Below are positions 52,311-59,331 of a stretch of DNA of 64,000 nt, in pieces. The stretch lies in contig NZ_QBDT01000001.1 of NCBI RefSeq assembly GCF_004124325.1, positions 3,100,001 to 3,164,000 on the forward strand. Reading direction: 5' to 3'. The notes under the pieces are model-generated. The model ran no database searches and was not told the origin of the DNA. It saw only the letters and a program-made list of their open reading frames with translations. A program made the position numbers and the translations under genes. Origin of the DNA: Streptomyces sp. L2. GTDB lineage: Bacteria; Actinomycetota; Actinomycetes; Streptomycetales; Streptomycetaceae. The first letter of the stretch is position 1. Each line of letters starts with the position of its first letter.

Positions 52311-52412
52311 GTGGCAGAACCTGCTGAATCCGCTGGAAAGCCGCAGTTCAGAGCAGGGGTTGGGCGACCGCTGAGTGGCGCAACATTCCCGCAACACCAC
52401 TTTCCCTATCGG

Positions 52413-53222
52413 ATGAGTATGGTTCCAGCCATGCCAGCCACCGACCGCCCCCGAGACTCCGCCGGTCCGGGCGCCGCGACCACCGTCGCCGCCCACCGCA
52501 CCCGGCGTCGGCTGCGTTCGGACCGGGCCCGGCAACTCGCGGACCTGCTGCGCCGGCAACTGATCACCGGCACCTTCCCGGCCGGCACCCTCCCCCACGA
52601 GTCCACCCTCGCCACCGACTACCGCACCTCCCGCAACACCGTCCGCCAAGCCCTGGACCTGCTCCGGACGGAGGGCCTGGTCAAGCGGCAGCCGGGAGTC
52701 GGCACCGTGGTCGTCGCCCAGAAATACCCCCATGGGCTCGACCGACTGATGGGCCTCGCGGAAACCCTCCACGAACACGGCCACGTCACCAATGAGGTCC
52801 GCGCCATGGGCCCCGTCCCCGCACCGGCCCCGGTCGCCGAACGCCTCCACGTCACACTCGGCACCGAAGTCCTCCACATCGAACGCCTGCGCCGCCTCAA
52901 CGGCCTCCCCCTCTCCCTCGACGACACCTACATCCCGCTCGACCTCGGCACCGCCCTGCTCGGCACCGACCTGGAGAACACCGACGTCTTCCGCCTGCTG
53001 GAAGCCATCACCGGACAGCACCTCGGTCACGCCGACATCACCCTGGAGGCGGTCAACGCGGACAGCCACTCCGCGGCCGTGCTCCAGGCCCCCCGGGGCG
53101 CGGCCGTCCTCATGCTGGAACGCCTCACCCACCTCGGCGACGGCCGGCCCGTCGACCTGGAGTTCATCCGCTTCCGCGGCGACCGCATCACCATGAGCGG
53201 CCTGCTGCACCGGTCGCTCTAA
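52413..53222 (+). CDS. GntR-family regulator with UTRA domain
   Basis: Predicted 269-aa HutC-type regulator. The winged helix (about residues 35-100) shows GTFPAGTLPHESTLATDYRT shortened to LPHESTLATDYRTSRNTV, then RQALDLLRTEGLVKRQPGVG. The UTRA ligand domain follows (PLSLDDTYIPLDLGTALL, later VLMLERLTHLGDGRPVDLE). It opens a six-gene operon with a ferredoxin 45 bp downstream, so it probably senses the transported compound or a product of the flavoprotein. The start is ATG 52413, 52419 or 52431; none has a ribosome site, and a leaderless transcript is possible. Confidence 0.87.
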   Translation: MSMVPAMPATDRPRDSAGPGAATTVAAHRTRRRLRSDRARQLADLLRRQLITGTFPAGTLPHESTLATDYRTSRNTVRQALDLLRTEGLVKRQPGVGTVVVAQKYPHGLDRLMGLAETLHEHGHVTNEVRAMGPVPAPAPVAERLHVTLGTEVLHIERLRRLNGLPLSLDDTYIPLDLGTALLGTDLENTDVFRLLEAITGQHLGHADITLEAVNADSHSAAVLQAPRGAAVLMLERLTHLGDGRPVDLEFIRFRGDRITMSGLLHRSL

Positions 53223-53267
53223 ACCGCGCCCCAACCACCCCTGCCTGCACGTTTCCTGGAGACAGCC

Positions 53268-53495
53268 ATGCCCATGGTGCCCCAGCGGGCCGACGTGCCC
53301 GTGACCATCGACGAGTCGAAGTGCATCGACGGCTGCACGCTGTGCGTGGACATGTGCCCGCTGGACTCCCTCGCCATCGACGAGAGCAACGGCACCGCGT
53401 ACATGCACGTCGACGAGTGCTGGTACTGCGGCCCCTGCGCGGCCCGCTGCCCCACCGGAGCCGTCACCGTCAACATGCCCTACCTGCTCCGGTGA
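53268..53495 (+). CDS. AprB-like two-cluster ferredoxin
   Basis: A 75-aa ferredoxin with eight cysteines for two [4Fe-4S] clusters. The first motif is CIDGCTLCVDMCP (Cys19, 23, 26, 30; CX3CX2CX3C), the second ECWYCGPCAARCPTGA (Cys51, 54, 57, 61). The Trp in ECWYC and the CX3C start resemble the beta subunit of adenylylsulfate reductase (AprB), though AprB is longer. It would carry electrons to or from the flavoprotein at the end of the operon. ATG 53268 follows CCTGGAGAC. The next gene starts 14 bp downstream. Confidence 0.9.
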   Translation: MPMVPQRADVPVTIDESKCIDGCTLCVDMCPLDSLAIDESNGTAYMHVDECWYCGPCAARCPTGAVTVNMPYLLR

Positions 53496-53509
53496 GAGGC
53501 CGAACCACC

Positions 53510-54853
53510 ATGAAACGCACAGCAACCGCCCTGTCGGCCGCCGTACTCCTCCTCCCCCTGTCCGCCTGCGGCGGCAGCGCTCAGGCAGGCAGCGGCACCA
53601 CGGTCACCGTCACCATCGGCTACCAGTCCAAGACCATCAACACCGTCACCGCCGGAACGCTCCTGCGCTCCCTCGGCTACTTCGAGCGGCAGCTCGACGC
53701 CCTGCACGACGGCCACACGTACAAGGTCGACTGGCAGGACTACGCCACCGGTGCCCCGATCACCGCCCAGATGACAGCGGGGAAGATCGACATAGGTTCC
53801 ATGGGCGACTTCCCGCTCCTGCTCAACGCCGCCCGCGGCAAGCAACTCGGCCGCCCCACCCACCTGGTCTCCGTCACCGGCTACAACCTGCGTGGCGGCC
53901 TCAACACCGTGGTCACGGCGCCCAGTTCCGCTTTGACGGACCTGAAGGACCTGAAGAGCAAGAAGGTCTCCACGAGCATCGGCTCCGCCGCCGACGGCAC
54001 GCTCGTACGGGCGCTGCAGCGCGCCGGAATCGACCCGAACACCGGCATCGCGAAGCTGAACCAGCAGCCCGCCGTGGGGGCTTCGTCGCTGTCCGCCGGC
54101 AACGTGGACGCGTTGTCGCAGTTCGTCGCCTGGCCGGGCCTTCTCGCCTACCAGGGCAGGGCGAAGGCCCTGTACGACGGCGCCCAACTGAACCTGCCCA
54201 CGTTCCACGGGGTCACAGCCCGCGCGGACTTCGCCGGGCAACGGCCCACCGTCCTGGAAGCCTTCCTCAAGGCCCAGACCGAGGCGACCGACTACCTGAA
54301 CGCGCACCCGGTCACCGCCGCCGAGAAAGTCGCCGAAACAACCGGCCTCCCGGCCGAAGTCGTCTACCTCTACAACGGCGCCCACGGCACCGCCACCTTC
54401 GACCCGGCCGTCAAACCCCGCCTGGTCTCCGCACTGAAGCAGGACGTATCCGTACTGAAGGCGGCCAAGCTGACCGGCGACATCGACGTGGACTCCTTCG
54501 TCGACGACCAATACGTGAAGCACGCTCTCGGCGCCGGCTACACACGACGCCTCACCGCCGCACCCCCACCCGCCCGGAGCGAGGTGTGGCCCAAGGGCAG
54601 CGAGAAGACAACGGCCTTCACCTCCCCCCGGCGACTGCTGGCCTACCTCGCCAGGCATCCGGACGGCATCCGGGCCGCCTACGTCCCCGACACCACCACC
54701 GGCACCCTCTGGTTCGCCGACAAGTCCGTCTGGGTGGCCGACGGCAGCCGGTTGCTGCCCTTCGTCACCCCGGCGACCGCCCAGGCCTACGTCTCCGGCC
54801 ACCAGGACGCCCGGACGGTCCCGTACCGAGAAGCACTGGAGCGGGCCTCATGA
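53510..54853 (+). CDS. NitT/TauT/SsuA-type substrate-binding lipoprotein with NosL-like C-terminal domain
   Basis: Predicted 447-aa lipoprotein. The lipobox LPLSACGG places the acylated Cys at residue 20. Residues about 32-335 form a periplasmic-binding-like domain of the sulfonate/nitrate/taurine type: VTIGYQSKTINTVTAGTLLR, TAGKIDIGSMGDFPLL and LSAGNVDALSQFVAWPG. Residues about 357-447 are an extra domain with SPRRLLAYLARHPDG, YVPDTTTGTLWFADKSVWV and FVTPATAQAYVSGHQDARTV, which resembles NosL, a copper-binding lipoprotein family. NosL metal residues are not obvious. It overlaps the permease start by four bases. Confidence 0.85.
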   Translation: MKRTATALSAAVLLLPLSACGGSAQAGSGTTVTVTIGYQSKTINTVTAGTLLRSLGYFERQLDALHDGHTYKVDWQDYATGAPITAQMTAGKIDIGSMGDFPLLLNAARGKQLGRPTHLVSVTGYNLRGGLNTVVTAPSSALTDLKDLKSKKVSTSIGSAADGTLVRALQRAGIDPNTGIAKLNQQPAVGASSLSAGNVDALSQFVAWPGLLAYQGRAKALYDGAQLNLPTFHGVTARADFAGQRPTVLEAFLKAQTEATDYLNAHPVTAAEKVAETTGLPAEVVYLYNGAHGTATFDPAVKPRLVSALKQDVSVLKAAKLTGDIDVDSFVDDQYVKHALGAGYTRRLTAAPPPARSEVWPKGSEKTTAFTSPRRLLAYLARHPDGIRAAYVPDTTTGTLWFADKSVWVADGSRLLPFVTPATAQAYVSGHQDARTVPYREALERAS

Positions 54854-55764
54854 TCCGGTTCCCCCTGGCCCGATATGCCCTGCGCGTGGCGTCGCTGGCC
54901 GCCGCGCTCGGCCTGTGGCAGTTGCTGACCGGTCTGGACGTCGACCTGTGGCTGCGGTTCTCGCAGTTCCCGACGGTCACCGACGTGGCTCGCGCCTTCG
55001 GCGACCGGCTCTCCGGCGCCGACTACTGGACCGACCTCACCGACAGCCTGACCCGCATCCTCACCGGCTTCGGGCTGGCCGCAGCCCTGGGCGTGACGAC
55101 GGGCGTGCTCGTGGCACGTTCGCGCCTCGCCGAGGACCTTCTCGGCCCCGTCCTGGAGGTCGTCCGCCCGATACCCGCCATCGCGCTCGTCCCCGTCGCG
55201 ATCCTGCTCTTCCCCTCCAACGAGCAAGGCATCGTCTTCATCACGTGCACCGCCGCCTTCTTCCCCGTGCTGGTCTCCACCCGGCACGCGGTACGCGCGC
55301 TCGCCCCCGTCTGGGAGGAAGCGGTACGCACGCTCGGCGGCGGCCGGATGCGGATCCTCGCCTCGGTCGTCCTGCCCGGCGCGCTGCCCGGCATCTTCGG
55401 CGGCCTGTCGGTCGGCATCGGCGTGTCGTGGATCTGCGTCATCTCCGCCGAGATGATCTCCGGCCAGTACGGCGTGGGCTACCGCACCTGGCAGGACTAC
55501 ACGGTGGTGAACTACCCAGGCGTCTTCGTCGGCATGGTCACGATCGGGGTCCTCGGCTGGGTCACCTCCACGGCCGTCGAACTCCTCGGCCGACGTCTGA
55601 CCCGCTGGCTCCCCCGCACCTCGTACGTCCCCGGCGGACGCGCCCGCGCGCCCCGGCCGGCCACCGTCGAACCCGCCTCCCACGGCAAACCCCAGTACCA
55701 GGCCAAAACCGAGCACGAGCGCCAGAACGACGCCGAGGAGGCCCACGATGAGCACCTCGTCTGA
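54850..55764 (+). CDS. ABC transporter permease, NitT/TauT/SsuC type
   Basis: Predicted 304-aa membrane permease with about six helices. The EAA loop is visible as EEAVRTLGGGRMRILASVVL with PGALPGIFGG, and GVSWICVISAEMISGQYGVG closes the conserved region. It works with the binding lipoprotein upstream and the ATPase downstream, which are all coupled by overlaps (54850-54853 and 55748-55764). A 45-residue polar tail follows the last helix. Family members carry nitrate, sulfonates, taurine or thiamin precursors; the substrate is open. Confidence 0.92.
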   Translation: MIRFPLARYALRVASLAAALGLWQLLTGLDVDLWLRFSQFPTVTDVARAFGDRLSGADYWTDLTDSLTRILTGFGLAAALGVTTGVLVARSRLAEDLLGPVLEVVRPIPAIALVPVAILLFPSNEQGIVFITCTAAFFPVLVSTRHAVRALAPVWEEAVRTLGGGRMRILASVVLPGALPGIFGGLSVGIGVSWICVISAEMISGQYGVGYRTWQDYTVVNYPGVFVGMVTIGVLGWVTSTAVELLGRRLTRWLPRTSYVPGGRARAPRPATVEPASHGKPQYQAKTEHERQNDAEEAHDEHLV

Positions 55765-56539
55765 GACCGTCACCGCCGCCCCGGCCACACCCCTGCCGGA
55801 CGCCGGACGCGGCACGCGGCTCACCCTCCGCGCCACCGTCCTCGGCCGGCCGGGCGCCCCCGTCCTGCGGGACGTCGACCTGGACATCGCGCCCGGGGAG
55901 ATCCTCACCGTCGTCGGCCCCTCCGGCTGCGGCAAGTCCACGCTGCTGCGCACACTCGCCGGACTGCTCTCCCCGCTGGCCGGTGCGGTCGAGCAGGACG
56001 GCACCGCACTGACCGGCCCGTCCGCCGACCGGGCGCTGGTGTTCCAGGACGACACGCTGCTGCCCTGGCGCTCGCTGCGCGCCAACGTCGAACTGCCCCT
56101 CGCCATCAAGGGAGTGGCACGCTCGGACCGCCGTACCGAAGCCGAGTCCTGGCTGGCCCGGGTCGGGCTGTCCGCACAGGCCCGGCAGGTACCGCACCGC
56201 GTTTCGGGCGGGCAGCGCCAGCGCGCGCAACTGGCCCGCGCGCTGGCCGGCAGCCCCCGGGCGGTCCTCATGGACGAACCGTTCGGCGCGCTCGACGCCC
56301 AGACCCGGGCCGGCATGCAGGACCTGCTGGTCGACGTGTTGCGGGGCACCGGCGCCACCGTCGTCTTCGTCACCCACGACGTCGACGAAGCCCTCTTCCT
56401 CGGCGACCGGGTGGCGCTCCTCGGCTCCGGCCGGCTGTCCGCCGTACACGACGTTCCCCGCCCGCGCGAGCGCGGCGCCCTCGACGACCCGGCCCGCTCG
56501 GCCCTGCGCCGCTTCGTCCTCTCCTCGCTCGGCACCTGA
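55748..56539 (+). CDS. ABC transporter ATPase, NitT/TauT/SsuB type
   Basis: Predicted 263-aa ATPase. Walker A is VVGPSGCGKSTLLR, Q-loop VFQDDTLLPWRSL, signature VSGGQRQRAQLARALAG, Walker B AVLMDEPFGALDAQTR and H-loop FVTHDVDEALFLGDR, as in SsuB/TauB/NrtD. The start overlaps the permease stop by 17 bases. Eleven bases after its stop, the flavoprotein gene begins with GTG, so the transporter and the flavoprotein are in one transcript. Confidence 0.94.
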   Translation: MSTSSETVTAAPATPLPDAGRGTRLTLRATVLGRPGAPVLRDVDLDIAPGEILTVVGPSGCGKSTLLRTLAGLLSPLAGAVEQDGTALTGPSADRALVFQDDTLLPWRSLRANVELPLAIKGVARSDRRTEAESWLARVGLSAQARQVPHRVSGGQRQRAQLARALAGSPRAVLMDEPFGALDAQTRAGMQDLLVDVLRGTGATVVFVTHDVDEALFLGDRVALLGSGRLSAVHDVPRPRERGALDDPARSALRRFVLSSLGT

Positions 56540-56550
56540 AAGGCACCCTG

Positions 56551-59331
56551 GTGGCCACCCACGCGAACGCCCCCGCGCGAACCCCCCTGGAGATTCCCGC
56601 CGTCAGCGACGCCGACGAGCTGGTCTGCGACGTCCTCGTCATCGGCGGCGGAACCGCCGGCACCATGGCGGCCCTCACCGCCGCCGAGCGGGGTGCGGAC
56701 GTCCTCCTCCTGGAGAAGGCCCACATCCGCCACTCCGGGGCGCTCGCCATGGGCATGGACGGCGTCAACAACGCGGTCGTCCCCGGCCGCGCCGACCCCG
56801 ACGACTACGTCGCCGAGATCACCCGCGCCAACGACGGGATCGTCGACCAGTCCACCGTCCGCCAGACGGCCACCCGCGGGTTCGCGATGGTCCAGCGACT
56901 GGAGTCGTACGGGGTCAAGTTCGAGAAGGACGAGCATGGCGCGTACGCGGTCCGCCAGGTGCATCGCTCCGGCTCGTACGTACTGCCGATGCCGGAAGGC
57001 AAGGATGTCAAGAAGGTCCTGTACCGGCAGTTGCGGCGTCGTGAGATGCGGGCGCGGATTCGTCTGGAGAACCGGGTGATGCCGGTGCGCGTGCTGACGT
57101 CGCCGGACGACGGGCGGGCTGTCGGCGCCGTCGGGTTCCACACCCGCACCGGTGCCTTCGTCACCGTCCGCGCGGGGGCGGTCGTCCTCGCCACCGGCGC
57201 CTGCGGCCGCCTCGGACTGCCCGCCTCCGGCTACCTCTACGGCACCTACGAGAACCCCACCAACGCCGGCGACGGATACGCCATGGCCTACCACGCCGGC
57301 GCCGAACTGACCGGTATCGAGTGCTTCCAGATCAACCCGCTGATCAAGGACTACAACGGGCCCGCCTGCGCCTACGTCGCGAACCCCTTCGGCGGCTACC
57401 AGGTCAACCGGCACGGCGAGCGCTTCGTCGACTCCGACTACTGGTCCGGACAGATGATGGCCGAGTTCGCCGCCGCGGTCGCCGGCGACCGCGGGCCGGT
57501 GTACCTCAAGCTCAGCCATCTGCCCGAGGAGTCGGTCTCCGCCCTCGAGTCGATCCTGCACTCCACCGAGCGGCCCACCCGCGGCACCTTCCACGCCGGC
57601 CGCGGGCACGACTACCGCACCCACGACATCGAGATGCACATCTCCGAGATCGGCCTGTGCGGCGGCCACTCCGCCTCCGGCGTCCGCGTCGACGCACACG
57701 CCCGTACGACGGTCCCCCGCCTCTACGCCGCCGGGGACCTCGCCTGCGTCCCGCACAACTACATGATCGGCGCCTTCGTCTTCGGTGACCTCGCGGGCGC
57801 CAACGCCTCCCAGTACACGGCGTACCAGGGGGAGCTTCCCGCGGACCAGGTGCGTGAGGCGCACGAGTTGATCTACCGCCCGCTGCGCCATCCTGACGGT
57901 CCGCCGCAGCCCCAGGTCGAGTACAAACTGCGCCGCTTCGTGAACGACTACGTGGCACCGCCCAAGTCCGGGGCCCGGCTCTCCCTCGCCGTGGAGGCCT
58001 TCGAACGGATGCGCGCCGACATCGCCACGATGGGTGCCCGCACCCCGCACGAGCTGATGCGCTGCGCCGAGGTCACCTTCATCCGCGACTGCGCGGACAT
58101 GGCCGCGCGTGCCTCCCTGGCCCGCACGGAGTCCCGCTGGGGCCTCTACCACGACCGCGTCGACCATCCCCGGCGCGACGACGCCTCCTGGTTCCACCAT
58201 CTCGACCTGCACAAGTCCCCCTCTGGTGTCATGGAGTTCACGGCCCGCCCCGTGGCTCCCTATCTGGTCCCTGTCGAAGGGTTCACGCCGGTCGGCGGCC
58301 CTTCCCGCCGGCTGGGCGAGGTCCGTCCCGAGGACGTGGCCACGGCCGGCCCGCGCGACACAGCCCCGGTCGCGGTGGGACCGACGTCCTCCCGCGCGGC
58401 AGTGCTCGCCGGCGAGGGCACCGTGAACAGTGCCTCGCCCCGGCTGCTGGAGCTGCTGGAGCTGGCCGAGCAGGAGCCGGATCTGGCTTCCCTCCGGCCC
58501 TACTTGGCCGACTCCGAGCCCGCGGTCCGTCGTACAGCCGTCTCCGTCCTCACCGAGACCGTGCCGACGGGCAGCGGTCTGGCCCTGGCGGGCGCCCTCG
58601 CCGATCCCGACGCCGAGGTCCGCGCCGCCGCCGCGGCCTCACTGCGCGAACTCGTCGAGACCCTGCCGCCCGACCCCGCCCTCGGTGACGCCCTCACCCG
58701 CGCGCTCACCGAACCCGACCCCGTGGTCCGCGCCGCCGCCGTCGACGTCCTGCGCGCCCTGCGGCTGGGTGACGCCGATGTGTTCGCCGTGCTGCTGGAC
58801 GACCCCGACATCACCGTCCGCGTCGAGGCCGTACGTGCGCTCGTGTCGGTCGACGCCGTCGCACCGCTGACGGGCGCTGCGGACGATCCCTCCCGGGAGG
58901 TCCGCGTCACAGTGGCCAAGGCCCTGGCGGTGGTCGGTTCGGCGCCCGGGAGCGGGCCGGACAGGACACTGCTCAGCCGCGCCCTGGACCGGCTCACCGA
59001 GGACGCCGACCCGCTGGTGCGGGGTGCCGCGCTGGAGGCGATGGCCTCCACCGGCTGCCCGGAGCCTCTCGCCACCCGCGCCGTGGCGGCCCTGGCCGAC
59101 CCGGCCTGGCAGGTGCGGTCGGGCGCCGCCACCGCCCTGTCGGCCGCGTCCCCCGAGACGGCGGTACCGGCCCTCGCCAAGGCCCTCGGCGACCCGAACG
59201 CCGATGTCCGCAAGGCGGCGGTCCTGGCCCTGACCCGGCATCGCACCACCGCCGAGGCCCGTGCGGCCCTCGCGACAGCCACCTCCGACTCGGACGCGGA
59301 CGTCAGGGCGTACGCGGCACGGGGCTGGTGA
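56551..59331 (+). CDS. AprA/fumarate-reductase-like flavoprotein fused to HEAT repeats
   Basis: Predicted 926-aa protein. Residues about 25-575 are a flavoprotein of the fumarate reductase/APS reductase alpha type: DVLVIGGGTAGTMAA (FAD), RHSGALAMGMDGVNN, GTYENPTNAGDGYAMAYHAG, CGGHSASGVRVD and LYAAGDLACVPHN. SGALAMGMDGVNN and NAGDGYAMA match AprA better than SdhA. Residues about 632-926 are nine HEAT-like repeats, each ending in xxVRxxAxxAL-type helices (for example LADPDAEVRAAAAASLREL). It closes the operon and its partner is the AprB-like ferredoxin. Cytoplasmic; substrate unknown. GTG 56551. Confidence 0.88.
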   Translation: MATHANAPARTPLEIPAVSDADELVCDVLVIGGGTAGTMAALTAAERGADVLLLEKAHIRHSGALAMGMDGVNNAVVPGRADPDDYVAEITRANDGIVDQSTVRQTATRGFAMVQRLESYGVKFEKDEHGAYAVRQVHRSGSYVLPMPEGKDVKKVLYRQLRRREMRARIRLENRVMPVRVLTSPDDGRAVGAVGFHTRTGAFVTVRAGAVVLATGACGRLGLPASGYLYGTYENPTNAGDGYAMAYHAGAELTGIECFQINPLIKDYNGPACAYVANPFGGYQVNRHGERFVDSDYWSGQMMAEFAAAVAGDRGPVYLKLSHLPEESVSALESILHSTERPTRGTFHAGRGHDYRTHDIEMHISEIGLCGGHSASGVRVDAHARTTVPRLYAAGDLACVPHNYMIGAFVFGDLAGANASQYTAYQGELPADQVREAHELIYRPLRHPDGPPQPQVEYKLRRFVNDYVAPPKSGARLSLAVEAFERMRADIATMGARTPHELMRCAEVTFIRDCADMAARASLARTESRWGLYHDRVDHPRRDDASWFHHLDLHKSPSGVMEFTARPVAPYLVPVEGFTPVGGPSRRLGEVRPEDVATAGPRDTAPVAVGPTSSRAAVLAGEGTVNSASPRLLELLELAEQEPDLASLRPYLADSEPAVRRTAVSVLTETVPTGSGLALAGALADPDAEVRAAAAASLRELVETLPPDPALGDALTRALTEPDPVVRAAAVDVLRALRLGDADVFAVLLDDPDITVRVEAVRALVSVDAVAPLTGAADDPSREVRVTVAKALAVVGSAPGSGPDRTLLSRALDRLTEDADPLVRGAALEAMASTGCPEPLATRAVAALADPAWQVRSGAATALSAASPETAVPALAKALGDPNADVRKAAVLALTRHRTTAEARAALATATSDSDADVRAYAARGW

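Follow-up and report, generated by a model that had tools for sequence, protein, structure and literature searches.

An AprA-like flavoprotein, a ferredoxin, and an ABC importer form a conserved gene unit in Streptomyces sp. L2 with a possible role in organosulfur use

We analyzed a window of 64,000 nucleotides from the 8.07 Mb genome of Streptomyces sp. L2 (contig NZ_QBDT01000001.1, positions 3100001-3164000), in which six head-to-tail genes on the + strand (52431-59331 of the window) make up an operon. They encode a GntR/UTRA regulator, a ferredoxin with two [4Fe-4S] clusters, a binding lipoprotein, the permease and ATPase of an ATP-binding cassette (ABC) importer, and a flavoprotein with HEAT repeats that resembles AprA, the flavin adenine dinucleotide (FAD) subunit of dissimilatory adenylylsulfate (APS) reductase. 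The family placement of the flavoprotein, its pattern of active-site residues, and the conservation of the gene unit are what we observe. We propose that the operon is a regulated uptake and conversion system for a small organosulfur anion, which would be driven by the ferredoxin and release sulfite, and we give this reading a probability of roughly 0.45.

Kinship and active site of the flavoprotein

The flavoprotein combines the Pfam domains FAD_binding_2, Succ_DH_flav_C, and HEAT_2. It is a full-length member of NCBIfam NF010374 (PRK13800; 1634 bits against a curated cut-off of 1196, residues 13-925) and also matches NF006131 (PRK08275), both named fumarate reductase/succinate dehydrogenase flavoprotein subunit. 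It falls below the cut-offs of the models for AprA (TIGR02061; 124 bits against 641.75) and for the L-aspartate oxidase NadB (TIGR00551; 107 bits against 452.75). Among the 120 relatives listed for it, the named ones are nearly all from Streptomyces and, its own entry aside, 91-94% identical. A search of open-licence PubMed Central (subscription papers and preprints lay outside it) returned no paper on a function tied to the family; PMC8305402, PMC12892962, PMC8557817, PMC2996968, and PMC7661421 offered no link to the operon.

The solved sequence closest to the flavoprotein is the alpha subunit of the Methanothermococcus phosphoadenylylsulfate (PAPS) reductase (8a8o, 190 bits), followed by AprA (105 bits) and succinate dehydrogenase (about 80 bits). 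In a tree of 24 rows, the family forms its own clade (support 91/98, just under the star of the tool), its neighbor is AprA plus a PAPS reductase-like (PAPSR-like) row (100/100), and a further branch with 100/100 support splits this whole group from SdhA, FrdA, NadB, and three further homologues encoded by the same genome. Because of long branches, the sister relation of the clade is less sure than the split from SdhA, FrdA, and NadB. A preliminary description, made from the sequence of the window alone, had called the flavoprotein and ferredoxin an AprA/AprB-like pair and suggested placing the former in a phylogeny. Our tree does so in part and, with the family in a clade of its own, does not refute its interpretation of the operon; the nearest solved sequence, a PAPS reductase, agrees with the AprA/AprB-like label.

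The most telling result is a residue table of 94 aligned rows, which represent 92 distinct loci (L054 and L120 were entered twice) and are mostly from Pseudomonadota. According to PMC2211403, Asn74 and His398 of AprA make contact with the oxygens of the APS sulfate group, and a contact of His446 with the nucleotide side is proposed. All three are kept, as in AprA, in 94/94 flavoprotein rows. The difference from AprA lies in most of the nucleotide-pocket residues tested, along with Arg265 and Trp234: every row has Leu for Arg265, Tyr for Trp234, His for Trp144, Cys for Gly274, and Val for Phe277, while Leu278, which clamps the adenine together with Arg317, is Ala, Thr, or Gly. Tyr95, Glu141, Gln145, and Val273 are likewise replaced in all 94 rows, by varying letters; the alignment is least certain in the loop around 141-145. 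The sulfo-group site is therefore kept in part, and most of the adenosine monophosphate (AMP) site is rebuilt, two features that the preliminary description had missed.

The same table bears on the names that the databases give to this family. His232, Arg287, Arg390, Thr244, and Glu245 are the catalytic residues of Escherichia coli FrdA, and all five, as well as its FAD-linking His, are absent in 94/94 rows. The family is already covered by sequence models, under a fumarate reductase/succinate dehydrogenase name whose implied function the active-site columns do not support. That the flavoprotein is such an enzyme, for which the fold family and automatic names speak, is a reading to which we assign next to no probability, since the catalytic residues are missing and the tree splits off SdhA and FrdA. 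Model scores, tree, and residue table led us to reject it together with NadB. Ordinary AprA was rejected on the residue table, on the aprA model score, and on genomes that hold both proteins. In two of the six genomes searched, a Thiobacillus and a Hydrogenophilales metagenome-assembled genome, true AprA (1094 and 908; 961 bits with the aprA model) coexists with the flavoprotein family (111 and 110 bits).

A reading of the enzyme as an APS or PAPS reductase for assimilation, placed in an unusual gene context, is also very improbable. A PAPS reductase is the nearest solved sequence, and like this protein of Methanothermococcus thermolithotrophicus, which has a ferredoxin-type beta subunit, the flavoprotein is accompanied by a ferredoxin. 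However, the AprA and PAPSR-like rows keep Arg265 and Trp234, as do 8a8o and the Ilyobacter protein that we take as its relative, and the flavoprotein family does not. The named plasmid loci that we read have no annotated cysC, cysD, or cysN, unlike Ilyobacter, and CysH/CysD-type genes are present elsewhere. On the AprA columns compared in the residue table and on the Ilyobacter gene context, we rejected an ordinary PAPS reductase. The Ilyobacter plasmid (L157:5303-10634) lines up genes for an APS-reductase-like flavoprotein and a ferredoxin with cysC, cysD, and a GTPase gene; the methanogen PAPS reductase may have a bacterial relative here.

The ferredoxin extends the likeness to APS reductase (AprBA), whose FAD subunit shares the fold family and is likewise paired with a 2x[4Fe-4S] ferredoxin, with a Trp between cluster and FAD. 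This electron-transferring tryptophan of AprB (Trp48) is kept in the ferredoxin of 109/109 loci, and in all 109 the ferredoxin gene lies within 5 kb of the flavoprotein gene on the same strand. The matched stretches hold eight cysteines in 108 loci and nine in one. Unlike AprB, the ferredoxin of the operon has no AprB tail, and it scores 34 bits with the aprB model TIGR02060, below the cut-off of 135.65. The linkage or fusion of the flavoprotein to HEAT repeats and the dedicated ABC importer are further differences from AprBA.

The gene unit and its importer

The gene set recurs in Actinomycetota, Pseudomonadota, and Cyanobacteriota as flavoprotein, ferredoxin, importer, and HEAT protein, often with DUF971 or Mrp, and with its own regulator. 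A homologue above the family cut-off is present in 69 of 197 genomes sampled from the same taxonomic order, and the operon is therefore accessory. A sample of the phylum gave matches with E values of 1e-150 or lower in 5 of 159 genomes, one of them that of Streptomyces sp. L2 itself. All 20 loci fetched from the order sample have the GntR, ferredoxin, binding protein, permease, and ATPase genes upstream in the same order; this, with the ferredoxin within 5 kb and on the same strand in 109/109 loci, rules out a chance row of unrelated neighbors. The earlier claim that the genes form one unit thus held when other genomes were searched, with the set found in three phyla. A plasmid search matched 55 records, from Tsukamurella and Nostoc to Rhizobium, Paraburkholderia, Acinetobacter, and Acidithiobacillus, of which six are partial, with no more than half of the query covered, and the Ilyobacter record is a distant relative at 25%. 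The genome search gave at least 587 places, of which the best 80 were kept by likeness to an Acidithiobacillus protein, which is why Pseudomonadota dominate the residue and neighbor counts. Across 88 loci (8 plasmid, 80 genome), we counted the flavoprotein 88 times, ferredoxin 88, HEAT 85, GntR 83, ATPase 73, binding protein 72, permease 68, and DUF971 65; the ABC counts may take in unrelated paralogues, and some contigs are cut. Pseudomonas putida presumably carries the set near PP_0205 to PP_0211, on which the literature search found nothing.

The HEAT protein has its own gene in the annotated Pseudomonadota and Cyanobacteriota loci that we read. Actinomycetota show two arrangements: fusion to the flavoprotein and, in a second type found in Streptomyces, a HEAT gene next to it. 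The fusion suggests that the two act together. The split genes occur in Streptomyces loci L141-L144 (genomes G083, G145, G099, and G073), and G073 and G083 also hold the fused form; on the Mesorhizobium AR07 plasmid (L154:9972-10929), the annotation splits the HEAT gene into two pieces that overlap. A gene for an Mrp/NBP35 iron-sulfur carrier is present in all four cyanobacterial loci, and its occurrence together with DUF971 suggests help in cluster loading. Plant HCF101 joins Mrp- and DUF971-type domains.

The structure model of the binding protein (pLDDT 86) finds its best matches in the sulfonate/taurine binders SsuA and TauA, in rows that mainly cover residues 28-350, with binders of nitrate, bicarbonate, and pyrimidine coming closely after. 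With the SsuA model TIGR01728, the protein scores 125 bits, below the cut-off of 163.5. Some copies of the gene set have sulfite exporters or sulfonate genes in their vicinity, and most loci have no sulfur neighbor. A TauE gene suspected beside the Acidithiobacillus cluster (L045) was looked for there and is absent. The preliminary description had proposed a small imported sulfur compound, and the fold matches and the sulfur genes near some copies leave it as the best guess.

The same importer could serve a flavoprotein of this family that acts on a sulfur-free substrate, such as a nitrogen oxyanion, a carboxylate, a thiamin-like heterocycle, or another NitT/TauT ligand, in which case the sulfur neighbors would be coincidental. 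NMT1-type binders serve many ligands, the order of the fold list leaves nitrate, bicarbonate, and pyrimidine close to the top, sulfur genes are missing at most loci, and thiCOSG stands beside one copy. The retained sulfate-contacting Asn and His, the sulfur enzymes as nearest kin, and the sulfonate binders as top fold matches argue against it, and we consider a sulfur-free substrate unlikely, though a proposal to be taken seriously.

Several observations touch on the importer and its surroundings. At its C-terminus, the binding protein carries an extension, which in some relatives resembles NosL: with PF05573 (cut-off 24), L125 scores 29.2 bits, L043 16.1, and L037 13.3, the protein of the operon is not listed, and a precomputed NosL match exists for 3 of the 120 listed relatives. 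By eye, a 12-row alignment of the extension shows no conserved Cys, Met, or His. In Leptolyngbya (L125:5307-7343), the flavoprotein gene adjoins one for a LysR regulator that carries a fused NMT1-type binding domain and looks as if it were a sensor of the imported ligand; two Pseudanabaena loci (L126 and L151) have annotated LysR genes of similar length. On a Nostoc plasmid (L038:9031-14185), the flavoprotein and ferredoxin genes are separated by genes for two HAD hydrolases, a methyltransferase, a GNAT, and a VOC protein, and an amidase gene lies farther along; these genes may encode processing steps for a larger substrate. A SelO-type gene lies near the cluster in one Hydrogenophilales genome, one Thiobacillus genome, and one cyanobacterium (L116, L120, and L125).

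Operon layout and upstream elements

The features of the operon are listed in Table 1. In operon order, the genes are spaced by +45, +14, -4, -17, and +11 bases (negative values are overlaps). The preliminary description had all six on the + strand as placed here and differed in the start of the regulator alone, for which it took the in-frame ATG at 52413; that start is also possible, and 52431 matches the start of most of the 20 aligned relatives. Its account of the six genes stands, except that it overlooked the HEAT repeats fused to the flavoprotein; it also made no mention of the C-terminal extension of the binding protein. Three of the four flanking open reading frames scanned look unrelated to the operon (an FAA hydrolase, an M48-type peptidase, and a RecQ-type helicase), and the fourth has no match in Pfam.

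A putative operator precedes the regulator gene and is recognizable in 20 of 21 aligned rows, the exception being L163. In 5/5 genomes, the exact copy occurs once, at the operon in this genome and at the corresponding site in the other four. When we sought a wider regulon in these five genomes, other matches (two to three mismatches) were no more frequent than in the control. This suggests local control by a regulator dedicated to the operon, in the simplest case the GntR protein, which would sense the imported compound.

Table 1. Genes, protein domains, and putative upstream elements of the operon, in window coordinates
Feature	Position	Strand	Basis
Conserved block, GTGGC-GATC-type (putative element)	52311..52321	+	Upstream alignment, own locus and 20 relatives
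Conserved block, CAG-TCA (putative element)	52344..52350	+	Upstream alignment, own locus and 20 relatives
Putative operator, 22 bases, two CGCAACA repeats 11 bases apart	52376..52397	+	Upstream alignment; repeat search
GntR/UTRA regulator gene	52431..53222	+	PF00392, PF07702
AprB-like 2x[4Fe-4S] ferredoxin gene, 75 aa, no AprB tail	53268..53495	+	Fer4_7; eight Cys and Trp common to relatives
SsuA/NMT1-type binding lipoprotein gene	53510..54853	+	PF09084 (NMT1); structure model; fold matches
C-terminal extension of binding protein, NosL-like in some relatives	54578..54850	+	Profile scan of relatives
ABC permease gene	54850..55764	+	PF00528 (BPD_transp_1)
ABC ATPase gene	55748..56539	+	PF00005 (ABC_tran)
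Flavoprotein-HEAT gene, whole	56551..59331	+	NF010374, 1634 bits
AprA-like FAD domain, residues 1-580	56551..58290	+	NF006131, 852 bits; alignments; tree
HEAT-repeat domain, about residues 646-923	58486..59319	+	PF13646 and other HEAT models

Proposed reaction and its meaning

From kinship, residues, and gene content, we infer the substrate, the redox direction, and the product as follows. By family and fold, the SsuA-like lipoprotein and the ABC transporter would import an organosulfur anion. By homology with APS reductase, the small ferredoxin would dock on the flavoprotein, and electrons would pass from the two clusters over the conserved Trp to FAD. The retained Asn and His (Asn73 and His373 in the numbering of this flavoprotein) would hold the sulfo group in place while reduced FAD attacks it to form an N5-sulfite adduct, from which sulfite would be released. 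A flavin-N5 attack on sulfur is put forward for PAPS reductase in PMC10322725, and we carry it over to the flavoprotein by analogy. With most of the AMP pocket rebuilt, a nucleotide is an improbable leaving group. The sulfite could be assimilated by an ordinary sulfite reductase or, in some hosts, removed by a TauE-type exporter, while the HEAT, DUF971, and Mrp proteins probably aid cluster loading or complex assembly.

The enzyme might instead run in the oxidative direction, with an imported sulfite- or sulfinate-like compound oxidized and electrons passed to the ferredoxin. APS reductase is reversible and runs in reverse in sulfur oxidizers, as stated in PMC2211403, and copies of the gene set occur in Acidithiobacillus and Thiobacillus. 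We nevertheless hold this direction to be distinctly improbable: FdxA and NADPH-type reductases, found at 13 of 101 loci, fit a supply of electrons, sulfite exporters would be unexpected, and an ordinary AprA is present alongside in two genomes.

Compared with SsuABC/TauABC and their oxygenases, the operon has no SsuD, TauD, or FMN reductase; the partner of its importer is a ferredoxin-linked flavoenzyme, and its binding protein has an extra C-terminal domain. A more far-reaching reading, which we hold to be less likely than not, is a new, oxygen-independent release of sulfur from sulfonates or other sulfo compounds, with the sulfo group cleaved through flavin-N5 attack by an APS reductase relative that takes its electrons from ferredoxin. 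It would be unlike the routes that use oxygenases, thiamin diphosphate, lyases, or glycyl radicals, and it would be spread among actinomycetes of soil, proteobacteria, and cyanobacteria. If the uptake and conversion system works as proposed, it would add a reductive means of freeing sulfite from organosulfur, a main form of sulfur in soil (PMC4267179). A large family called fumarate reductase in databases would then be a sulfur-acquisition enzyme, and the chemistry of APS reductase would reach beyond nucleotide sulfates, for which the operon offers a concrete gene set that is testable in tractable hosts.

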